This document shows, piece after piece, positions 13,524 to 40,412 of a DNA stretch of 40,412 nt (its first letter is position 1; every line of letters starts with the position of its first letter). The position numbers were made by a program, and so were the translations under genes. This DNA is from a virus, in IMG/VR virus record IMGVR_UViG_3300043409_001577, positions 1 through 40,412 of that record. One strand, 5' to 3'. Under the pieces are notes generated by a model that worked only from the letters and a program-made list of their open reading frames with translations, had not been told where the DNA came from and did no database searches.

Positions 13524-14003
13524 ATGATTATGAACAACTCTGATATGAACATTGCGAAGGCTCTCGATATAGAAATCCCCTTAGAAGCGAAGCCAATTCT
13601 GAAGGTGGAAGAGGACACACAGGTGGTGCTGTCTGTGACGGGTGGGTATGCCGCCTCTGATGCTGATGATGACTACAAAGTCGTTCGAAAGAACCTGAAG
13701 GTTGTCATCGAGCAATCCAATAGCGCAATTCAAGGAATATTGGAACTTGCAGAGGATAGTCAACAGCCCCGTGCATATGAAGTCGTTGCCCAACTCATCG
13801 GCCAGACTCTTGAAGCCAACACCAAGTTGATAGATCTTCATCGTCGAATGAGGGAAATTAAGAAGGTAGAGGGCAGGTCAACGCCTTCCACAGTGACGAA
13901 CAATAGCATTTTTGTTGGAAGCACGGCAGAGTTGCAGAAGTTGATTCGCAATCAAAGACAGATCATTGAATCTACAAGCACACCAATAGAAGAAGGTAAA
14001 TAA
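13524..14003 (+). CDS. 16: Terminase small subunit, T4 gp16-like
   Basis: 159 residues (T4 gp16: 164). The central part DDDYKVVRKNLKVVIEQSN, then AIQGILELAEDSQQPRAYEV and VAQLIGQTLEANTKLIDLHRRM, matches the T4 gp16 pattern (DDYGVVRRNM, a helix pair with PRHMEV and a helix with KEILKLHKEM). The end has the conserved NNSIFVGSTAELQKLI. The small subunit recognises concatemeric phage DNA and regulates the large subunit ATPase and nuclease. Start at ATG 13524 with AGGA eight bases upstream; an in-frame second ATG at 13530 is possible. The stop overlaps the gene 17 start (TAATG). Confidence 0.9.
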   Translation: MIMNNSDMNIAKALDIEIPLEAKPILKVEEDTQVVLSVTGGYAASDADDDYKVVRKNLKVVIEQSNSAIQGILELAEDSQQPRAYEVVAQLIGQTLEANTKLIDLHRRMREIKKVEGRSTPSTVTNNSIFVGSTAELQKLIRNQRQIIESTSTPIEEGK

Positions 14004-24534: not shown

Positions 24535-25875
24535 ATGGATCTAACCATTTCAGAAGCACTTCAGAAGAAGTGGAAGCCAATCTTGGAGCACCCAGAACTC
24601 CCAGAAATCAAGGATGCCTACAAGCGTTCCGTCACAACCATGCTGCTCGAAAATCAAGAGCAGTATCTCAAGGAATCCGCACCAACGAACTTCTCCGACA
24701 ATCTCGGTGGTTCGTCGGGTGTTAGCCGTTGGGATCCGATTCTCATCTCGCTCGTTCGTCGTGCGATGCCAAATCTGATCGCCTACGACATCTGCGGTGT
24801 TCAACCGATGTCGGGTCCAACAGGACTTATCTTTGCAATGCGTAGCCGCTACATGACGCAGGGTGGTCCAGAAGCATTGTACCAAGAAGCCGATACACGC
24901 TTTGGTGGTTCGGGCAGTACGGGTGCTACAGCAAACGGTGTGATTGACACAGATACATTTGCATCTAATTCGGCAGGTGTTGATCCGTTTGAAACTTCTA
25001 ATGGTCCATCGGTCTTTGGTGGCAATCCTACTCTGCTCGGCGAAGCACTCGGTGATGGTGTCAGTAATCCGTTCCCACAGATGGCATTCAGCATCGAAAA
25101 GACCACAGTTGAAGCGAAGACTCGTGCTCTCAAGGCTGAGTACACGATGGAACTCGCACAAGACCTGAAGGCAATCCACGGACTCGACGCTGAGACCGAA
25201 CTTGCTAACATTCTGTCGAGCGAAATCTTGGCTGAAATCAACCGTGAAATCGTTCGCACACTTTACGGCACGGCTAAGTTGGGTGCTCGTTCGGGACAGA
25301 CTCAAACTGCTGGTGTTTTCGATCTCAATGTCGATAGCAACGGTCGTTGGTCGGTCGAGAAGTTCAAGGGCTTGCTCTATCAGATCGAGCGTGAATGCAA
25401 TCAGGTCGCCAAGGAAACTCGTCGTGGCAAGGGCAATTTCGTGCTCTGCTCGGCAGATGTTGCCTCGGCTCTCTCGATGGCAGGAATCCTCGATTATGCT
25501 CCAGCACTTTCGACGAACCTCAATGTCGATGACACAGGCAATACATTCGCAGGTGTCCTTAACGGTCGCCTCCGTGTGTACATTGATCCATATTCGTCGA
25601 TGACTTCCACCCATGACTTCTTCATGGTTGGTTATAAGGGATCGTCCGCATATGACGCAGGTATGTTCTACTGCCCGTATGTGCCGCTTCAAATGGTTCG
25701 TGCAGTCGGTGAGCAGTCCTTCCAGCCGAAGATCGGCTTTAAGACTCGCTACGGTCTCGTCAACAACCCATTTGCGACAATCACAGGTGGTGTTTCGGTG
25801 ACTGATCCAACACTTGCTGGTGCAAAGCGTAAGAATTGCTACTACAGAATTGTAAAAGTTACAAACCTTTTCTGA
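24535..25875 (+). CDS. 23: Major capsid protein, T4 gp23-like
   Basis: 446 residues (T4 precursor: 521). Strong gp23 features: KKWKPILEHPELPEIKDAY, LVRRAMPNLIAYDICGVQPM, SGPTGLIFAMRSRY, LKAEYTMELAQDLKAIHGLD, AETELANILSSEILAEINRE, YDAGMFYCPYVPL and FQPKIGFKTRYGLVNNPFA. HK97-fold capsomer. A candidate gp21 cut site (L/I)xE is YLKE-S at residues 44-48, in the position expected for removal of the N-terminal arm. Late-type CTAAATA at 24485-24491 and AAGGAGA upstream; a strong hairpin terminator follows at 25900-25930. Confidence 0.97.
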   Translation: MDLTISEALQKKWKPILEHPELPEIKDAYKRSVTTMLLENQEQYLKESAPTNFSDNLGGSSGVSRWDPILISLVRRAMPNLIAYDICGVQPMSGPTGLIFAMRSRYMTQGGPEALYQEADTRFGGSGSTGATANGVIDTDTFASNSAGVDPFETSNGPSVFGGNPTLLGEALGDGVSNPFPQMAFSIEKTTVEAKTRALKAEYTMELAQDLKAIHGLDAETELANILSSEILAEINREIVRTLYGTAKLGARSGQTQTAGVFDLNVDSNGRWSVEKFKGLLYQIERECNQVAKETRRGKGNFVLCSADVASALSMAGILDYAPALSTNLNVDDTGNTFAGVLNGRLRVYIDPYSSMTSTHDFFMVGYKGSSAYDAGMFYCPYVPLQMVRAVGEQSFQPKIGFKTRYGLVNNPFATITGGVSVTDPTLAGAKRKNCYYRIVKVTNLF

Positions 25876-28415: not shown

Positions 28416-28670
28416 CTAGGAAAATCTCACGGAACCATCAGCCACCGCAGTATCCCAGATGAATCGTACTGTTTCTTTATCGACGGTGACAATGTACTCC
28501 CAGGTTTGAGCGGAAGTTCCGCCCTTGCCCCCAAAGATCGCAATCCATCTTGGATCAATCGCCACAAAGCGAAGCCACTTCTTTTTCCCTTGATGAAAGA
28601 GCATCGGATCTGTGGGAGTGAAGTCGGCCACAGTAGCGTAGGTAGCGGAGGTTGTTGTTGGCTGAGTCAT
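28416..28670 (-). CDS. Small hypothetical protein
   Basis: 84 residues from ATG 28670, which lies 10 bases after the stop of the preceding minus-strand gene; the open frame continues upstream but would run back into that gene. No good Shine-Dalgarno. Notable parts are KWLRFVAIDPRWIAIFGGKG and TWEYIVTVDKETVRFIW, suggesting a small beta-rich domain. It ends four bases from the convergent lipoprotein gene. Function unknown. Confidence 0.5.
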   Translation of the reverse strand: MTQPTTTSATYATVADFTPTDPMLFHQGKKKWLRFVAIDPRWIAIFGGKGGTSAQTWEYIVTVDKETVRFIWDTAVADGSVRFS

Positions 28671-28680
28671 CAATAGAAGA

Positions 28681-29007
28681 TTACGTTGTTTTGCCTTGGA
28701 TGTCAAGCCCATCGTCCAAGATTTTTGCGATTTCTTCTGAGTCTGATAAGATCTCATCAATCTCTTCCATGCTGGTTACTGTGCGAACGAACATTGGAGT
28801 TCCCTCACCCACCCAAGCACCTAAAACATTGAATACCATGTACTCATAGGCTTCGTCAATAGTGCCTCCGTCTCGGTCTACCAGCAATTGAGCGCACTTC
28901 TCGTAGTCGTAGACGAGGATCGGAATATTCATGCCGAAGCGACTGCCTATACCGATAACGCAGGTGTCGAATCCATCAGCCTTGAGTGTCTTACTTTGAG
29001 TTGTCAT
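28681..29007 (-). CDS. Conserved small phage protein, unknown function
   Basis: 108 residues from ATG 29007, where AGGA lies eight bases upstream (ATG 29013 is too close to it). The sequence FDTCVIGIGSRFGMNIPILV, YDYEKCAQLLVDRDGGTIDE, AYEYMVFNVLGAWVGEGTPM matches a short protein I recall from many unrelated phages, with the pattern D.CVIG...R, YDY.K....L..RDG....EA.EY...N..GA.VGE.TP.F. No biochemical role is known to me. It overlaps the preceding gene by 17 bases. Confidence 0.75.
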   Translation of the reverse strand: MTTQSKTLKADGFDTCVIGIGSRFGMNIPILVYDYEKCAQLLVDRDGGTIDEAYEYMVFNVLGAWVGEGTPMFVRTVTSMEEIDEILSDSEEIAKILDDGLDIQGKTT

Positions 29008-33895: not shown

Positions 33896-34363
33896 TCAAG
33901 ATGAACCATCTCGGTGAGTCCACCAATATGGTGGGGGGCAATGCTTCCACACGGCAATCTTGCTCTTCTCACCCATGTAATAGTTGCGGTATGCGACTAC
34001 CGCATTTGCATCTTTGTACTGATCGGGCATTGCCTGTGCAAATGGTGTAAGACCGATATTGGGGAGAGTTGTTAATTTTGAGCAAAAAGAGATAACCGCT
34101 TGCGACTTGTGTGTTCGCTTGTATCTTCGGCTGTATTCTTCACACATAGCCTGTGCGTGTTCGCATAGCCAGTCAAAGTTTCGTTGACTTTCACGAACCC
34201 ACTTAGTGCAGGGGTGATTCTTGAATGCTGACTTGTACGGCGCACCCTCACCGTAAGCAGTACATAGCATCTGCGCCGACTCAAGAATCATCTTGACGAT
34301 GTGCTTGTCGCAGAGCATAAAGGCGGCTACTTGTGGATCTTCATCGACTACAAAAATATTCAT
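33896..34363 (-). CDS. Conserved phage protein; pyrimidine-dimer-glycosylase-like family
   Basis: 155 residues. MNIFVVDEDPQVAAFMLCDK then HIVKMILESAQMLCTAYGEG, HPCTKWVRESQRNFDWLCEH and KIAVWKHCPPPYWWTHRDG follow a family common in phages (MNIF..D.DP...A...CDKH..KM.LE.AQ.L), sometimes annotated as pyrimidine dimer DNA glycosylase-like. It does not resemble T4 DenV directly, so the enzymatic role is uncertain. Promoter TTGACA-N16-TAGAAT (34370-34397) ends six bases before the ATG and no Shine-Dalgarno is present, indicating a leaderless mRNA. Confidence 0.75.
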   Translation of the reverse strand: MNIFVVDEDPQVAAFMLCDKHIVKMILESAQMLCTAYGEGAPYKSAFKNHPCTKWVRESQRNFDWLCEHAQAMCEEYSRRYKRTHKSQAVISFCSKLTTLPNIGLTPFAQAMPDQYKDANAVVAYRNYYMGEKSKIAVWKHCPPPYWWTHRDGSS

Positions 34364-34401: not shown

Positions 34402-34707
34402 TCAAATTTGGGGCAATGAGGGTTGTTGTGATAAATCACGTCGCACCCAACCCATCTCAACCAAGAAGTTCCAAACCAATCGGGCTTCTGATCGGAGAAC
34501 CGTTTGTGGGATGCCATCTTCGAATGTCCAAAGCCCCACCCGACATTCCATCCTTGTCGGTGATTGAGGCAAACCACATTTGTATTCGGTCATCATCAAA
34601 GTTGGATCGTGTGGACACTCGTAAAAGTAAAAGTAGGAAAGAGTTTCAGAAAAAATCAGACTGTGGGAGACGATGACGGGGCACACGGTTGTTGTGGTAT
34701 CTTTCAT
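34402..34707 (-). CDS. ARxxWxxLxxxGW-family protein A
   Basis: 101 residues. Starts at ATG 34707, six bases after the -10 box TATTCT (leaderless); ATG 34713 directly abuts the -10 and is less plausible. The C-terminus EARLVWNFLVEMGWVRRD shows the family helix and GW motif, followed by a 12-residue extension. The N-terminal part has strands (SLIFSETLSYFYFYECPHD) and several Cys. Function unknown. This member is more divergent than those at 37-39 kb. Confidence 0.68.
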   Translation of the reverse strand: MKDTTTTVCPVIVSHSLIFSETLSYFYFYECPHDPTLMMTEYKCGLPQSPTRMECRVGLWTFEDGIPQTVLRSEARLVWNFLVEMGWVRRDLSQQPSLPQI

Positions 34708-34713
34708 GCTCAT

Positions 34714-34742
34714 AGAATACCTTATGTTTGTGATGGTGTCAA
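34714..34742 (-). promoter_or_regulatory. Sigma70 promoter TTGACA-N17-TATTCT, leaderless
   Basis: -35 lies inside the end of family gene B; -10 ends six bases before ATG 34707 of family gene A. Confidence 0.62.
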
Positions 34743-34982
34743 GGGAACATCTCCACTTTCTTCGGAACTCGACCTCTCCTGCCAGCCGTGATGGACGATC
34801 AGGGCAGTCCATAACTCTCTCGCCAATTGGATCGTGTAGCAACCCTCGTGGGTCACCTCGTTGGTTTTGGGGTTGGTCACCACAGACCTAACAACTCCCG
34901 AACCCACAGCAATGTAGAAAATCCTTTTGCGTGTGCCACATGGCGACACGAGAATATGAGGGATGCCAAGGTTGTTCGTCAC
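34722..34982 (-). CDS. ARxxWxxLxxxGW-family protein B
   Basis: 86 residues, starting at GTG 34982 within the stop of the previous gene (GTGA), with GAGGGG six bases upstream. N-terminal strands (HILVSPCGTRKRIFYIAVGS) precede the family helix QLARELWTALIVHHGWQER, which has one extra residue before GW, and a Ser/Glu-rich tail. Its 3' end carries the promoter of the next family gene. Function unknown. Confidence 0.62.
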   Translation of the reverse strand: MTNNLGIPHILVSPCGTRKRIFYIAVGSGVVRSVVTNPKTNEVTHEGCYTIQLARELWTALIVHHGWQERSSSEESGDVPLTPSQT

Positions 34983-35311
34983 TTGTCCCCTCGCAAAATC
35001 ATTCGTGCCAATTCGGTTCCCACAAGGGCATCAAATTGGATTCTTTCATTTGCGGTACAGTCCGCAGGATCATATGAGAGGGATACTATTGCGGTAAAGG
35101 TATCAATGATCCCATGGTTGGAAGTGAGGGCGAATGCTTCGATATCGTCTTCGAAGTTCTGTTTGGAGACTGCAATGAACTTGTCTTGGGTTGTGGGGTA
35201 GAACTGTCGGGTGTAGGCATCTTGAATCACAAAGACAGTCTTGCAGTCAGGAAACTTCATGGCGGGGATACCAATCTCATCGAATCCGTAGTGAACATGA
35301 ACGAGAGTCAC
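34979..35311 (-). CDS. Hypothetical protein
   Basis: 110 residues from GTG 35311, with a strong GAGGAGGAG seven to eight bases upstream. Sequence features: KFPDCKTVFVIQDAYTRQFY, DKFIAVSKQNFEDDIEAFAL, TFTAIVSLSYDPADC and a C-terminal helix ELARMILRGDK. The end has an AR.. helix but no GW motif, so it is not counted with the family. An 18-bp perfect palindrome lies about 25 bases upstream and may be an operator. Confidence 0.62.
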   Translation of the reverse strand: MTLVHVHYGFDEIGIPAMKFPDCKTVFVIQDAYTRQFYPTTQDKFIAVSKQNFEDDIEAFALTSNHGIIDTFTAIVSLSYDPADCTANERIQFDALVGTELARMILRGDK

Positions 35312-35339
35312 GGTGTTTTCTCCTCCTCATCGGAGCAAT

Positions 35340-35357
35340 CCCATCGAATTCGATGGG
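35340..35357. promoter_or_regulatory. 18-bp perfect palindrome, possible operator
   Basis: CCCATCGAATTCGATGGG, upstream of the GTG at 35311 and its Shine-Dalgarno, between the exonuclease gene and the 110-residue gene. Could be a dimeric repressor site or an RNA hairpin. Confidence 0.45.
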
Positions 35358-35407
35358 TTTATTGGAAAGTGATTTACTCGGCAACCTTCTATACAATGTT
35401 ATTGTTT

Positions 35408-36262
35408 TCAGGAAAGATCACTGAATTCTGTTTCGGACATAATTCGGATACCTTTGCCTACAGCCGTCTTTGATTTTTTTGTGACTAATTCCCACTCGTC
35501 AACAACATCTCCGCTGTTAGCCACTACGAGGATATTTGTTGTCTTTGTGACGGATTCCGTTGGGGTTCCACCCAACCGAATGATTTTTTCGTGTGCTTCA
35601 GATTTTGTCATTCCATTACTAAAATCTCCAGTGATACAAATCTTCATCCCTTTGCAAGTAGACGAACTCACCTTTGTTTCTTCTAGTAACTGCTTGATTC
35701 CACGAGAAGGAGTTGGCTCCTTAATCTCTCGTTGCGTGTATTCCTGTTTGAGGAGGACATTCACAACAGCAGCACACCCACGGGCATCCGCTTCTGCTTG
35801 GTGGGACTCCATGAATGGGATACCAAGGGCTTCGCACACAGTAGGCAACTTATGGTTGTGGATGTTCAATAAACTTCTGGACAGAGACAGAGAACAGTTG
35901 AGTTTGACGTTATCTAAAAACCCTGCTGTGTCGTATTGTCGTAAGAACTTTTGTTCGAAGGGGGCGTTGTGGGAATACAATCGCATATCCGTACCATCAG
36001 CGGTAACTTTAAGATACCAATCCATGAATCCAGACCACACTTCTTTCATTCTTGGGCTATCCACAACAGATCCCTCGAAAATTCCATTGATTGCCATAGC
36101 CACAGGCTCCCATACTGTGTGTGGAGGGGGCTTTACCAATGTAGAAAACGAGTATACCTCGGTGTTTGTGTCTGTGTCAATCACTACTAATGCAAATGAG
36201 CAAATATCGTTTGTTGGTGGGTTCAAACCAGTGGTTTCAAGATCAATGGCGGCAATGAGCAT
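35408..36262 (-). CDS. DnaQ-type 3'-5' exonuclease fused to a BRCT domain
   Basis: 284 residues from ATG 36262 (GAGGAG nine bases upstream; TTG 36277 is less likely). Exo I: LIAAIDLETTGLN (D7, E9). Exo II: LYSHNAPFEQKFL (H98, N99); here the usual acidic FD is FE (E103). Exo III: SHQAEADARG (H154, D159). These make the DEDDh exonuclease of the DnaQ/epsilon superfamily. Residues ~205-284 (MKICITGDFSNGMTKSEAHE, IRLGGTPTESVTKTTNILV) form a BRCT domain as found at the end of bacterial DNA ligases and some exonucleases. Probably acts on DNA ends or proofreading, with BRCT giving partner or DNA-end binding. Promoter TTGACT-N16-TACACT at 36290-36317. Confidence 0.9.
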   Translation of the reverse strand: MLIAAIDLETTGLNPPTNDICSFALVVIDTDTNTEVYSFSTLVKPPPHTVWEPVAMAINGIFEGSVVDSPRMKEVWSGFMDWYLKVTADGTDMRLYSHNAPFEQKFLRQYDTAGFLDNVKLNCSLSLSRSLLNIHNHKLPTVCEALGIPFMESHQAEADARGCAAVVNVLLKQEYTQREIKEPTPSRGIKQLLEETKVSSSTCKGMKICITGDFSNGMTKSEAHEKIIRLGGTPTESVTKTTNILVVANSGDVVDEWELVTKKSKTAVGKGIRIMSETEFSDLS

Positions 36263-36289
36263 ATGTTTTCTCCTCAAGGGTTGGTCTGG

Positions 36290-36317
36290 AGTGTAATAAA
36301 AAAATTGAAGAAGTCAA
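36290..36317 (-). promoter_or_regulatory. Sigma70-like promoter TTGACT-N16-TACACT
   Basis: Upstream of the exonuclease-BRCT gene, with a leader containing GAGGAG. The -35 overlaps the stop of family gene C. Confidence 0.55.
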
Positions 36318-36583
36318 TCAGTTTTGCGTACCCACCCTCTTCTGACCAACGCCCTCCACACACATTGGGCTTCGTCGAGGGTGAGGGTACTGAGAAGGGC
36401 TTGGCTGTCTGTGTAGATCATCTCCGTGTAGACAAAGTCTGACCCTGAGCCAATCGGTTTTGTTGCGTCCACATAAAAATATCGAGTGCCATAGTTGTCG
36501 TGGGCGGTGAGGGCATAGATCAAAAAAGCACCATGGCGAGGAACCTGAACGGGATACTTGGAGTTTGCTGGTAGTTTGATCAT
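36314..36583 (-). CDS. ARxxWxxLxxxGW-family protein C
   Basis: 89 residues. N-terminal beta region (GAFLIYALTAHDNYGTRYFY) and C-terminal family helix LDEAQCVWRALVRRGWVRKT, with Gln replacing Arg of the motif and a C-terminal basic end. The only nearby ribosome-like sequence (AGGA) is very close to the ATG. It lies between the 62-residue gene and the exonuclease gene, and its stop overlaps the exonuclease -35 box. Function unknown. Confidence 0.65.
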   Translation of the reverse strand: MIKLPANSKYPVQVPRHGAFLIYALTAHDNYGTRYFYVDATKPIGSGSDFVYTEMIYTDSQALLSTLTLDEAQCVWRALVRRGWVRKTD

Positions 36584-36609
36584 GTCCTATCGTCCCGATT
36601 CTAGATCAT

Positions 36610-36798
36610 TCAGAATTCGAGGAAGATGTCATAGGAGGGAGAACCCCCACAGATCTTGCTGCACTTGGCAGCAAGACGGCCAGCAGCCTTTTCGGCCTCG
36701 ATGCGGGAAGAGTAGGACTTGGTTCGACCGTATGAGCCAAGACCCTTGAGGGAGCCGCCGTGGTACACGATGCCGTAGTATGTGGTTTTGTTCTTCAT
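36610..36798 (-). CDS. Small basic hypothetical protein
   Basis: 62 residues: MKNKTTYYGIVYHGGSLKGL, a Ser/Arg-rich middle (YGRTKSYSSRIEAEKAAGRL) and KICGGSPSYDIFLEF. The middle helix looks like the end of a small dsDNA- or RNA-binding or single-sheet domain, but no family is named. Promoter TTGTAT-N17-TATACT (36805-36833) ends six bases before the ATG with no Shine-Dalgarno, so it fits the leaderless pattern. Confidence 0.62.
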   Translation of the reverse strand: MKNKTTYYGIVYHGGSLKGLGSYGRTKSYSSRIEAEKAAGRLAAKCSKICGGSPSYDIFLEF

Positions 36799-36804
36799 GG
36801 TTGT

Positions 36805-36833
36805 AGTATACTGTTAAATGAGGAAAGATACAA
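36805..36833 (-). promoter_or_regulatory. Sigma70-like promoter TTGTAT-N17-TATACT, leaderless
   Basis: -10 ends six bases before ATG 36798 of the 62-residue gene. No ribosome site. Confidence 0.55.
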
Positions 36834-36854
36834 GGGGTAAAAGTCTGAAAGAGG

Positions 36855-37100
36855 CTAAATGATGCGTTCCCATCCGTCAGCAATAAACGCTTTCCACAAA
36901 TTGCGGGCTTCATCGAGAGATTTGTGTGCTTGGCATTTATGCTCATCGGGAGAAAATTGAGAGCAATAAGTGATATGGACTTCCATGTCATGGTGAATCG
37001 CATCACCAAGAACATCGAATCTGATCTTTGTCCAACTTATGTTGGTGGGGTGAGTCAACTCGTATGTTTTGGTCTCGTTGGTGTTCACAGGTGTTTCCAT
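36855..37100 (-). CDS. ARxxWxxLxxxGW-family protein D
   Basis: 81 residues from ATG 37100, overlapping the upstream family gene by 16 bases. N-terminus ETKTYELTHPTNISWTKIRF matches the TTYTLTHP start of member J; middle HHDMEVHITYCSQFSPDEH; C-terminus LDEARNLWKAFIADGWERII. Last gene of the tandem run. Function unknown. Confidence 0.68.
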   Translation of the reverse strand: METPVNTNETKTYELTHPTNISWTKIRFDVLGDAIHHDMEVHITYCSQFSPDEHKCQAHKSLDEARNLWKAFIADGWERII

Positions 37101-37381
37101 CCCGTTCTCACAAGTTCCTGCCAAAGATCTCTGCACTGCTCGATGCTGAGGATTCGTCCGTCCTCATTGGGCATCATAAGGATTGTGTGTCTGTTGCCGT
37201 TGTGTTCAAACTCGAATGCCATTTGTAGAGGAGATGCTAGAGAATGATCCACCAATCGAATTTCCATATTACAGATTTCGTAGCCTCCTCGATTGGGGAG
37301 ATATTGAAAAAAGAACAAGGCTTGCTCACGGTGGAGGGTAAAAGAATTCGATGGTGAGCCTGTGGGTATACGGACTGTCAT
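37085..37381 (-). CDS. ARxxWxxLxxxGW-family protein E
   Basis: 98 residues. ATG 37381 overlaps the stop of the upstream member (ATGA), so translation is coupled. Strands FFFQYLPNRGGYEICNMEIR and LQMAFEFEHNGNRHTILMM lead to the family end IEQCRDLWQELVRTGWKHL (Cys before Arg instead of Ala). It ends right after the GW motif. Function unknown. Confidence 0.68.
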   Translation of the reverse strand: MTVRIPTGSPSNSFTLHREQALFFFQYLPNRGGYEICNMEIRLVDHSLASPLQMAFEFEHNGNRHTILMMPNEDGRILSIEQCRDLWQELVRTGWKHL

Positions 37382-37650
37382 GAGTGAGCCATCCATCCTT
37401 GGGAGACAAGTTCGTTCCACAGTTCCCGTGCGTCCTCGATCCGTAACTCAAAACTTCTGCGAGAGACGATCCGATGACCACAGCGAGAAATGTACTCCTC
37501 ACCCGTATTCGCATCGGATTGGAAGGTCACGGTGATTCCACGACTTTCGAAGTGGTTACCCTGAAAGTAAAAATTTGCACTCCCCCACACCAAGAGATGG
37601 GTATAGGTGACGGCAGGAAATGTAGAGTGTGTGGGTGGGATTTTATTCAT
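37378..37650 (-). CDS. ARxxWxxLxxxGW-family protein F
   Basis: 90 residues. GGAAGG seven bases upstream; ATGA overlap with the upstream member. N-terminal strands VTYTHLLVWGSANFYFQG and GITVTFQSDANTGEEY; C-terminus IEDARELWNELVSQGWMAHS, one of the best matches to the family consensus. Function unknown. Confidence 0.7.
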   Translation of the reverse strand: MNKIPPTHSTFPAVTYTHLLVWGSANFYFQGNHFESRGITVTFQSDANTGEEYISRCGHRIVSRRSFELRIEDARELWNELVSQGWMAHS

Positions 37651-37931
37651 GATTTAACCTTCCAACCCTGAGAGATGAGGGCATCCCACAATCGCCTACC
37701 CCATTCAAGAGATACGAGTTGGGCTGATGTGGGACCCGCATAGAAAACCATGATTTGGGTTGATTGTTCGTAGACTCGGAGGCATTCGTTGTCGGGTGGG
37801 TTGCTTGAGTAAATGTCGTGGGAGTATGTTGCCTTTATATGAGCCATGACTGTCTCGGTTTGCTCAAAAATCTCAAATTTCATGATTCGTTTGGGAGCAT
37901 ACATGTCGTAGAGGGTGTGTGTGGTAGTCAT
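37647..37931 (-). CDS. ARxxWxxLxxxGW-family protein G
   Basis: 94 residues from ATG 37931; ATGA overlap with the upstream member and GGGAGG nine bases before ATG. The leader GGATGGGAGGTTTCA before the start is nearly identical to that of member I, evidence of duplication including the ribosome site. N-terminus TTTHTLYDMYAPKRIMKFEI; C-terminus EWGRRLWDALISQGWKVKS. Function unknown. Confidence 0.7.
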   Translation of the reverse strand: MTTTHTLYDMYAPKRIMKFEIFEQTETVMAHIKATYSHDIYSSNPPDNECLRVYEQSTQIMVFYAGPTSAQLVSLEWGRRLWDALISQGWKVKS

Positions 37932-38191
37932 GGTGAAACCTCCCATCCTACGGAGATTAAGGCATTCCAAATCTCACGAGCAGCCTCGATACCCCACATA
38001 CCCGTCATCCCCTCTCGCAGCAACCAAGACGTATTGGGAACTGGCATATACATCATGCTACCCCCTTCCACCGTTGAGTATGTGATGTCAACTGCTTGCA
38101 TGTGTCTATCCGTGACAGTAAATTCGACCGTCCTCTTGTCGCCGATGGCGTTGCGCCATTGGAGAGTGTATGTGGTGTGTGTGTTAGTCAT
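37928..38191 (-). CDS. ARxxWxxLxxxGW-family protein H
   Basis: 87 residues with GAAAGG nine bases upstream. N-terminus TNTHTTYTLQWRNAIGDKRT, strands VEFTVTDRHMQAVDITYSTV, and C-terminus IEAAREIWNALISVGWEVSP. The C-terminal half is the closest to member J. It follows the 42-residue membrane peptide by 16 bases and is the first family gene of the operon driven by the promoter at 38343. Function unknown. Confidence 0.7.
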   Translation of the reverse strand: MTNTHTTYTLQWRNAIGDKRTVEFTVTDRHMQAVDITYSTVEGGSMMYMPVPNTSWLLREGMTGMWGIEAAREIWNALISVGWEVSP

Positions 38192-38207
38192 GATTGAACC
38201 TTTCGTC

Positions 38208-38336
38208 TTAGTTCACCATGCAGATGACTGTCTTCGGGATTTTCGTCAGGATGCGAATGCGGGGTGGGAGGAAGATCCCAGCGAGGGTGGTGTAGGCGGC
38301 GAGGACGAGGACGAGGATGGTAGTGGTGGTCTTCAC
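38208..38336 (-). CDS. 42-residue membrane peptide with leaderless GTG start
   Basis: Read directly: V/M-KTTTTILVLVLAAYTTLAGI followed by FLPPRIRILTKIPKTVICMVN. One N-terminal hydrophobic helix and a basic tail. The start GTG 38336 lies exactly six bases after the -10 box TATGTT of a strong promoter, with no Shine-Dalgarno. It opens the operon of family genes H-G-F-E-D. The frame is short, so it rests on promoter geometry and composition. Confidence 0.45.
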   Translation of the reverse strand: MKTTTTILVLVLAAYTTLAGIFLPPRIRILTKIPKTVICMVN

Positions 38337-38338
38337 AA

Positions 38339-38421
38339 CTGAAACATACTTTATCTTTGGTTTGGTGTCAAGCCCTCAAGGGGAGATTCGGGACAGAAAG
38401 AGAAAAAATTGGAGATTCTGA
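38339..38421. repeat. Duplicated promoter module, copy 1
   Basis: Shares two exact blocks with 39034-39126: 36 bases (38339-38374, the promoter) and 27 bases (38395-38421). Copy 2 is 12 bases longer between and at the blocks. Confidence 0.85.
38343..38371 (-). promoter_or_regulatory. Sigma70 promoter TTGACA-N17-TATGTT (copy 1)
   Basis: Consensus -35; -10 ends six bases before GTG 38336. Identical over 36 bases (38339-38374) to the copy at 39034-39069. Drives the operon of family genes H to D. Confidence 0.7.
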
Positions 38422-38432
38422 TGCTCACAAGT

Positions 38433-38759
38433 CTACAACCTTTCTACAACCTTCCAGCCCAATTCGACGAGCCGACTCCAAACCGCTCGGGCAATATGGG
38501 TGGGTACGAATTGATCTCCTCCAAAATCGTTCGGCAATTTTACCAACAATCTGGGAGGCTCACCGCAACCATCGGTGTCCGCAGTAGTCCATAGATCGAG
38601 CAGTTTGTCATGAGGATCACGCCCTTGGCCGAACTTTCGCCAATGGTAATACTTGAGGCCAACCTCACCACCCGCACAGGGGTCGAATGTCACATACCGT
38701 GAGTTGTGTGGGTACTTTGGATCAACGAGTTGGTATGTGGTCATGGCGGTGGTTGTCAT
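38433..38759 (-). CDS. ARxxWxxLxxxGW-family protein I
   Basis: 108 residues from ATG 38759 (ATGA overlap with member J, GGGAGG nine bases upstream, leader almost identical to that of member G). N-terminus TTTAMTTYQLVDPKYPHNSR, middle EVGLKYYHWRKFGQGRDPHD and C-terminus HIARAVWSRLVELGWKVVERL. Longest member with a clear match at both ends. Function unknown. Confidence 0.7.
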   Translation of the reverse strand: MTTTAMTTYQLVDPKYPHNSRYVTFDPCAGGEVGLKYYHWRKFGQGRDPHDKLLDLWTTADTDGCGEPPRLLVKLPNDFGGDQFVPTHIARAVWSRLVELGWKVVERL

Positions 38760-39007
38760 GATGAAACCTCCCATCCTGCGGCGATCATGGTATTCCAAAT
38801 TGTTCTTGCGTGATGGGTGTACCGTAATATCATTCCCGTTGGCAATCGCCAAAAGGTCTCACCCTGAGCATCTATGCCCCGATGGAATCTGATTTCGTGG
38901 TCTGCATCATTTGTGATCTCAACAGTGTTGTCCATATCGACGAATAGGGTGAAGGTGACCGAAATAATCTTTCCGCAGTAGGGATGGGTGAGAGTGTATG
39001 TGGTCAT
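38756..39007 (-). CDS. ARxxWxxLxxxGW-family protein J
   Basis: 83 residues, first gene of the I-J pair. Starts MTTYTLTHPYCGKIISVTFT, continues NTVEITNDADHEIRFH and WRLPTGMILRYTHHARTIWN, ending TMIAAGWEVSS. Unlike the 42-residue gene that uses the duplicated promoter copy, this one has a leader of about 25 bases with AAGGAAG, although the spacing to ATG is long. Function unknown. Confidence 0.68.
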   Translation of the reverse strand: MTTYTLTHPYCGKIISVTFTLFVDMDNTVEITNDADHEIRFHRGIDAQGETFWRLPTGMILRYTHHARTIWNTMIAAGWEVSS

Positions 39008-39033
39008 CGTGTGTTTTTGGGTCTTCCTTACAC

Positions 39034-39126
39034 CTGAAACATACTTTATCTTTGGTTTGGTGTCAAGCCTTTAGGGAGACAAAACAGGAAGAAACAGGAA
39101 GAAAGAGAAAAAATTGGAGATTCTGA
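39034..39126. repeat. Duplicated promoter module, copy 2
   Basis: Exact blocks 39034-39069 and 39100-39126 match copy 1. The spacer holds a short repeat of AACAGGAAGA. Confidence 0.85.
39038..39066 (-). promoter_or_regulatory. Sigma70 promoter TTGACA-N17-TATGTT (copy 2)
   Basis: Second copy of the duplicated promoter; here no start codon lies at +1, and the leader carries AAGGAAG before gene J. Confidence 0.7.
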
Positions 39127-39253: not shown

Positions 39254-39364
39254 GTCAAGTAAAAAATCCAAAAAATATAAAAATAGTTTTGTCAAGTAAA
39301 AAATCCAAAAAATAAAAAAATAGTTTTGTCAAGTCAAAACCTCCAAAAATAAAAAAATATATTT
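39254..39364. repeat. Three tandem 37-bp AT-rich repeats
   Basis: Units start at 39254, 39291 and 39328, each beginning GTCAAGT; units 1 and 2 are nearly identical, unit 3 diverges. The minus strand shows ACTTGAC at each unit boundary, but no matching -10 is found. Confidence 0.85.
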
Positions 39365-39534: not shown

Positions 39535-40412
39535 TCAGAGGTTCGTGCTGATCAGGGTAGCGATCCGAGCCATCAGGGGGCGGTTTGCTTTGCGACTTGC
39601 AAGGCTCTTGACGAAGGCTTTCTGAAGTTCCTTCTCGCCCTTCTTCGAATTCGTATCCACCGTCACACTGTTGAAGTCGAAGTCAACCTCTTGAGCGTTG
39701 GCCGTGTTGAGGTAGATCTCCTCATCGAAGCCGTTGTGGTTCTTGACTCCAACCCAACCTTCTTTGCCCCAGTGCTTCTTGGCAGCGAGGTACTCAGGAG
39801 CGTGTTCTCCGCCGAGGGTAGTCATGATGGGGTAGAGGTGTTTGCGTCCGCCCACCGTGAGGTTGATGTTGATGACTTTGCTTCCCGTGCGATCTTTCAG
39901 CATCTTCACGAGGAGTGCTTGTTGCTCAGTTGAGTTGAGGGTGGTCTTGAAGACCTTGCCACCGTAGGTACTCTCCGTCCAAACGTTGTACTCTCGACGA
40001 GTCTGAGGGTCACGGACAACCGTCACCGTTTGTCCTGCGGGATCGGTGTATCCCCAGTTCCCCTTGGCGAGGGGGGTGTCTCCCGCTTGGCCATCGGTGA
40101 GGATGATCGTGTTGACCACCTGCACGTTGTGCTTCTTCTTGAAGGCAGGGACGAGGTGAAGGAGACCCATGAGAGCCTCGTTCGTAGGCGTTCCGTTCAG
40201 GGCGAAGCCTTGATCGGTGAACTTGCTGTAGATCGATCCTCCACCGTTCTCGCCGCCTCGCATCGCCTTGACGTACTCGTTACTGTTGTTGTTTCCGTAA
40301 CTCGCAGCGAGACCTGCACCGTAAGTGAGGAGAGCGGCAACCGCTTTCTGCCAGCGGAGTTGGGTGGTTCCGCTCTCGACGAGAGTGAGGAGTCGAGTCT
40401 TAGTCCCAGGCA
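39535..40412 (-). CDS. VWA-domain protein (5' end outside window)
   Basis: About 292 codons visible; the frame is open to the right edge, so the ATG at 40263 is probably internal. VWA (MIDAS-type) features: FALNGTPTNEALMGLLHLVP with the MIDAS Thr, and VVNTIILTDGQAGDTP with the Asp of the second metal motif; the first DxSxS would lie outside the window. The C-terminal part has VININLTVGGRKHLYPIMTT and GWVGVKNHNGFDEEIYLNT. VWA proteins bind partners via a divalent cation, often together with AAA+ ATPases; the partner is not in view. A rho-independent terminator follows at 39461-39495. Confidence 0.8.
   Translation of the reverse strand, partial: PGTKTRLLTLVESGTTQLRWQKAVAALLTYGAGLAASYGNNNSNEYVKAMRGGENGGGSIYSKFTDQGFALNGTPTNEALMGLLHLVPAFKKKHNVQVVNTIILTDGQAGDTPLAKGNWGYTDPAGQTVTVVRDPQTRREYNVWTESTYGGKVFKTTLNSTEQQALLVKMLKDRTGSKVININLTVGGRKHLYPIMTTLGGEHAPEYLAAKKHWGKEGWVGVKNHNGFDEEIYLNTANAQEVDFDFNSVTVDTNSKKGEKELQKAFVKSLASRKANRPLMARIATLISTNL

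Follow-up and report, generated by a model that had tools for sequence, protein, structure and literature searches.

The plastic regions of T4-like phages carry small early host-takeover genes, many of them short and overlapping, under host-type promoters. A second described system of relevance here is DUF1651 (PF07864), a family of Synechococcus, Prochlorococcus and Cyanobium. In three marine cyanobacteria, DUF1651 genes are responsive to infection by phage, several of them being induced by cyanophage, and inactivation of an operon holding a DUF1651 gene lowers the phage yield (Fedida and Lindell, PMC5490813). The mutant of the SYNW1659-1658 operon makes less phage DNA (PMC5490813), and PMM0684 is part of a Prochlorococcus island that responds to phage (PMC2518516).

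We analyzed a stretch of 40,412 bases (the window, G000) that constitutes an IMG/VR-type virus record and belongs to an uncultured, T4-like aquatic virus of bacteria. Its T4-like virion genes occupy the plus strand up to ~27 kb. At 14003, the gp17-like terminase shares 51-53% identity with those of cyanophages and Pelagibacter phage Mosig, while the gp23-like capsid protein at 24535 is nearest to those of Pelagibacter HTVC008M and Mosig (63-64%), followed by the Methylophilales Melnitz phages (62%) and cyanophages (about 60%). The uncultured relative G006 is much closer (capsid 91%, terminase 75%), and the capsids of further uncultured relatives (G003, G005 and G015-G018) are 83-84% identical to that of the window. 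The psbA gene, a sign of a cyanobacterial host, was found neither in the window nor in 18 family-bearing records, one of 168 kb included.

The accessory region of the window, on the strand opposite to the virion genes, carries an array of small paralogous genes (Table 1). All ten minus-strand reading frames listed by the initial annotation were found at the positions and with the C-terminal helix-plus-GW motifs that it had given. Its claim of frequent ATGA links holds for four 4-nt overlaps (J/I, H/G, G/F and F/E), whereas a probable fifth, E/D, reads GTGA and requires D to start at the GTG codon at 37088. The overlaps chain the genes as J-I and H-G-F-E-D. The array interval also contains non-members, for instance the genes at 34979-35311 and 36610-36798. 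One of the non-members joins an RNase T-type exonuclease to a BRCT domain, an uncommon pair for a phage. Beyond the A end, a minus-strand gene for a pyrimidine dimer DNA glycosylase (33896-34363; Pfam Pyr_excise, E 3e-12) has its ATG 6 nt after a promoter-like site.

Table 1. Features of the array and its surroundings, in window coordinates.
Feature	Position	Strand	Details
Member J	38756..39007	-	83 aa; MTTYTLTHP...HARTIWNTMIAAGWEVSS; leave-one-out E 3.8e-7
Member I	38433..38759	-	108 aa; ATGA overlap with J; leave-one-out E 6.1e-6
Member H	37928..38191	-	87 aa; leave-one-out E 3.5e-10
Member G	37647..37931	-	94 aa; ATGA overlap with H; leave-one-out E 9.9e-10
Member F	37378..37650	-	90 aa; ATGA overlap with G; leave-one-out E 1.5e-6
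Member E	37085..37381	-	98 aa; ATGA overlap with F; leave-one-out E 1.1e-5
Member D	36855..37100	-	81 aa (ATG 37100) or 77 aa (GTG 37088); leave-one-out E 2.8e-8
Member C	36314..36583	-	89 aa; leave-one-out E 2.0e-4
Member B	34722..34982	-	86 aa; starts with GTG; diverged furthest among the ten; leave-one-out E 1.9e-3
Member A	34402..34713	-	<=103 aa; start 34713, 34707 or 34686; leave-one-out E 3.4e-4
Probable eleventh member, degenerate	28416..28670	-	MTQPTTTSATY...VRFIWDTAVADGSVRFS; outside the array interval
Control region, unit 1 (J-I)	39020..39103	-	TTGACA-17-TATGTT at 39066-39038
Duplicated control region, unit 2 (H unit)	38325..38408	-	TTGACA-17-TATGTT at 38371-38343
Promoter-like site directly before A	34714..34742	-	TTGACA-17-TATTCT
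Three 37-nt AT-rich tandem repeats upstream of J	39254..39364		minus strand of each contains TTGAC
Flanking gene, non-member	34979..35311	-	homologs adjoin the family in G006, G005 and G003
Exonuclease-BRCT gene, non-member	35408-36277	-	RNase T-type exonuclease and BRCT in one protein
Non-member	36610-36798		
Non-member ORF	38208-38336		42 aa
Flanking gene	39535..40410	-	truncated at the window edge; vWA-like on visual inspection; family arrays also adjoin its closest homologs

The ten proteins form one paralogous family beyond chance, probably together with an eleventh. When each member was left out in turn and searched for among the 612 window ORFs with a profile of the other nine, it was found at rank 10 every time, right after the nine training sequences (E 3.5e-10 to 1.9e-3), while the best non-member reached only E 0.22 with the ten-member profile. 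In the numbering of member A, the first aligned, M1, F28, W81, G88 and W89 do not vary, and R78 is almost invariant. A DNA pattern of the motif gave six exact matches in the window versus none in 100 shuffles, which together with the profiles bears out the single family proposed initially; a stricter DNA pattern demanding GW-E/K-V codons found no match. The codons of the conserved A, R, L and G differ synonymously, which indicates that conservation acts at the protein level and is old. The shared signal resides almost wholly in the C-terminal ~25 residues, the N-terminal parts having diverged. Profiles of the N-terminal parts alone recovered D, H and J weakly when left out (E 0.02-0.16) and did not recover the other seven members. 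The reported TTYTLTHP-like start can be kept for J, D, H and I, and is loose in G.

The probable eleventh member, at 28416-28670, gave no match with a profile built from 32 family members (A2). It resembles an ORF of G006 at a similar place (28697-28942; identity 26%, with E 1.3e-4 against the small database of G006 ORFs), and that ORF was itself found by an A2 profile built without it (E 1.1e-7). The presence of a clear G006 member at a similar place is thus the reason for counting the window gene as a probable member.

AlphaFold models were obtained for H (mean pLDDT 82.9, pTM 0.70) and, with modest confidence, for F (pLDDT 70.7, pTM 0.55). The H model comprises strands 6-13, 19-26 and 34-40, a helix at 68-80 and a strand at 84-86; that of F comprises strands 14-20, 35-44, 47-56 and 60-68, a helix at 71-83 and a strand at 87-89. 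The two predictions, both from shallow alignments, agree in the order of a beta-meander, a helix and a final strand, and the unrelated folds that the initial annotation had named as grounds against the family thus did not appear. The conserved A, W and L of the helix are placed on one face, which would fit a structural core. Searches of the PDB gave no usable fold match (all E >= 0.75) and no useful sequence match. In the BFVD, Foldseek linked both models to proteins of Streptomyces phage Nesbitt and to one WGR protein of Agrobacterium phage Atu_ph07, all at E > 0.01; the latter reached a probability of 0.95 with H and 0.99 with F, at a TM of about 0.56. WGR domains (PF05406) resemble the models in their small sheet, the helix after it and the GY/GW turn at the end, but their helix is longer and the window members contain no W-G-R motif. 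WGR membership was ruled out on sequence, as hmmscan matched none of the 32 members and a control hhalign comparison of the family with WGR gave 0.1%.

The initial annotation knew of no described family with this signature, a statement that does not quite hold in view of DUF1651. This profile matches 17 of the 32 family members, nearly all below its curated Pfam cut-off of 22 bits, while every other Pfam family matches at most one of them. Six of the ten window members are matched at 13.5-21.1 bits, all below the cut-off, the best being F (21.1 bits) and D (21.0 bits); one relative (G005/L065) passes it with 24.5 bits over positions 7-68 of 74. The window members align to profile positions 47-70 only, or from 26 in the case of D. 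Comparison of the family with 17 cyanobacterial DUF1651 domains by hhalign gave a probability of 93% (E 3.5e-7) over 28 C-terminal columns, and a profile built from the phage proteins ranked cyanobacterial DUF1651 ORFs top. DUF1651 was present in 10 of 24 cyanobacterial genomes, all of Synechococcus/Cyanobium type or a cyanobacterial MAG. Coliphage ECBP5, named as a DUF1651 carrier (PMC5490813), was matched neither by DUF1651 nor by the phage profile at E <= 0.001.

At the level of sequence, a C-terminal helix with a GW turn is common to the window family and picocyanobacterial DUF1651. Both have the helix pattern AxxxWxxLxxxGW after strands, a length of about 75-100 residues and several copies per genome. 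In the host, DUF1651 genes lie in genomic islands and are phage-responsive. The window members differ in that only their last ~25 residues align and in being phage-encoded, in tandem and not basic: their pI is 5.1-8.8, mostly neutral to acidic (median 6.2 for the phage family in A2), whereas that of the cyanobacterial domains (alignment A3) is 7.0-11.5, mostly strongly basic. Because the window proteins fall below the 22-bit cut-off, we call them DUF1651-like and would file them as such, not as DUF1651. DUF1651 occurs in marine and other picocyanobacteria, whereas the window is a phage record; with psbA absent from all 19 records, the DUF1651 link may say nothing about the host.

A motif scan of IMG/VR returned 87 stretches, some of them by chance. 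The A2 profile matched the window (10 copies) and 24 of 24 viral records tested, which is not an unbiased rate, the records having been picked as carriers of members. Methyltransferase-like ORFs of L006, L018 and L056 had entered the first iterated profile by chance, and A2 as well as the later pairwise and motif tables were made without them. Among 69 members with the R/W pattern, on which they were selected, the conserved A is present in 61, L in 47, G in 55 and W/Y/F in 58, in a table that still included a few members later judged doubtful. In L019 (10500-11288), the family domain is fused C-terminally behind a DUF5710 domain, and L035 and L068 resemble this fusion by eye.

The local amplification described initially recurs in other viral records, with arrays of 15 (G001), 9 (G005), 6 (G002) and 4 (G003) copies by the A2 profile, and the comparison with relatives that had been proposed shows wide variation of both copy number and protein bodies. 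The visible part of G006 contains two clear members. In G005 and G003, the members lie between homologs of the window genes at 39535 and 32627 that flank the array. A scan with the 39535 gene, in which the motif was not used, recovered these two and a new contig, L206, with three adjoining members; the family thus occupies the same genomic place in the close relatives G005, G003 and L206. At 77 of the 80 loci, those with more distant homologs of the 39535 gene on other T4-like contigs, no members adjoined, and the reversed-sequence control of the scan gave none. A tblastn search with three members (H and two from relatives) found none in isolated phages, and IMG/VR yielded no close relatives of H, J or the exonuclease-BRCT gene.

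The placement of the array in an accessory region is supported by host-type promoters as well as by the strand. Perfect TTGACA-(16-18)-TANNNT sites occur eight times in the window, all on the minus strand, and are predicted to be strong sigma-70-type promoters of the accessory strand; early expression may be inferred from these promoters and the strand. The array shares with T4-like host-takeover genes the strand opposite to the late genes, the host-type promoters and the short overlapping genes, but consists mostly of one family and not of unrelated ORFans. At 10 of 33 perfect sites in the window and four relatives (L199, L200, L202 and L204), the ATG or GTG of an ORF lies exactly 6 nt past the -10 box, a spacing that resembles leaderless or very short-leader transcripts and may hint at the host; the minus-strand window sites concerned are 39066, 38371, 34742, 34397, 33361 and 28706.

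The control regions of the J and H units are 76% identical over 84 nt, with an identical promoter core, while the coding bodies of J and H share only 49% identity in DNA and 36% in protein. The copied 84-nt region shows duplication of a promoter-gene module for this one pair.

The initial annotation had read the amplification as diversification against variable host targets, which is unproven. Purifying selection, which does not characterize an arms race, acts on two orthologous subfamilies from other phages (L005, L011, L062, L031 and L086), and such a race is therefore not demonstrated; the defined dN/dS values are 0.08-0.35, with several pairs saturated, and the window paralogs are too diverged for this test. 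PADLOC defence profiles, which cover counter-defence poorly, matched none of the ten window members.

We consider it the likeliest of several explanations, with a probability of about 0.42, that the array encodes early, non-virion, host-directed modulators built on one scaffold and spread by promoter-gene duplication. Each protein would be a small domain with a beta-meander packed on one amphipathic helix, in which the conserved A, W, L and GW would form the core and the strands and loops before the helix would vary. Host sigma-70-type promoters would drive early transcription of the genes, whose products would work in the cell rather than in the virion, as small modulators binding host (or phage) factors, perhaps with a separate partner for every copy. 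Growth of the array may in part reflect copying of promoter-plus-gene modules, after which the coding bodies diverged heavily.

It is possible, but unlikely, that the proteins are instead small domains of WGR-like shape that bind nucleic acids, coating or marking the DNA or RNA of the phage or the host. The Atu_ph07 matches of both models, the basic charge of most cyanobacterial DUF1651 domains and the reduced phage DNA of the operon mutant (PMC5490813) point in this direction; the failure of the WGR sequence comparisons, the lack of a WGR structure among the PDB fold matches listed and the mostly neutral to acidic pI of the window members argue against it. Slightly less probable is neutral or selfish amplification, by which duplicates would persist without separate targets. 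Diversifying selection was not seen and bodies and copy number differ widely across relatives, as expected under such a process, but the purifying selection in the orthologous subfamilies, the ten frames that stay open with five 4-nt overlaps, and the motif kept despite synonymous codon change speak against it.

We give less credence again to capture of picocyanobacterial host genes, which would make the array the phage's own copies of infection-induced DUF1651 proteins. The restriction of DUF1651 to Synechococcus/Cyanobium-type genomes and one MAG among the 24 cyanobacteria tested, its induction on infection (PMC5490813), and the possibility that it raises phage yield, would favor such an origin; the likeness is remote and C-terminal, the charge differs, psbA is absent in relatives, and the capsid is nearest to Pelagibacter and Methylophilales phages (62-64%, cyanophages about 60%). 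A role as small virion or morphogenesis proteins is very improbable: the region does come after the head and tail genes, but it lies on the opposite strand behind host-type promoters, and PHROGs gave no functional and no structural (virion) match. Hardly any weight can be given to the view that the GW end is a by-product of the ribosome-binding site and start codon of the next gene within it (GGATGGGAGGTTTCATCATGA). The next start does overlap the gene end at five junctions, and in J and H the GW-E-V codons contain a GGAGG ribosome site. Overlap cannot explain the motif, however: GW is also kept in A, B, C, D and I, which have no such overlap at that end; the upstream A, R, W and L would be left unexplained, and the motif is kept in other phages and in cyanobacteria. 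As a cause of the motif as a whole, nucleotide overlap is refuted.

One might speculate, as a possible but unlikely reading, that a clade of T4-like phages maintains a variable repertoire of binders on a DUF1651-like scaffold, renewed by module copying, with picocyanobacterial DUF1651 as the host side or a captured remnant. The window family is a real, little-studied one with a named relative. DUF1651 genes count among those that marine picocyanobacteria turn on when attacked by phage (PMC5490813). The same C-terminal module, amplified in phages, provides a second, independent set of sequences for DUF1651, and the array described here offers a concrete way to seek its partners and function.
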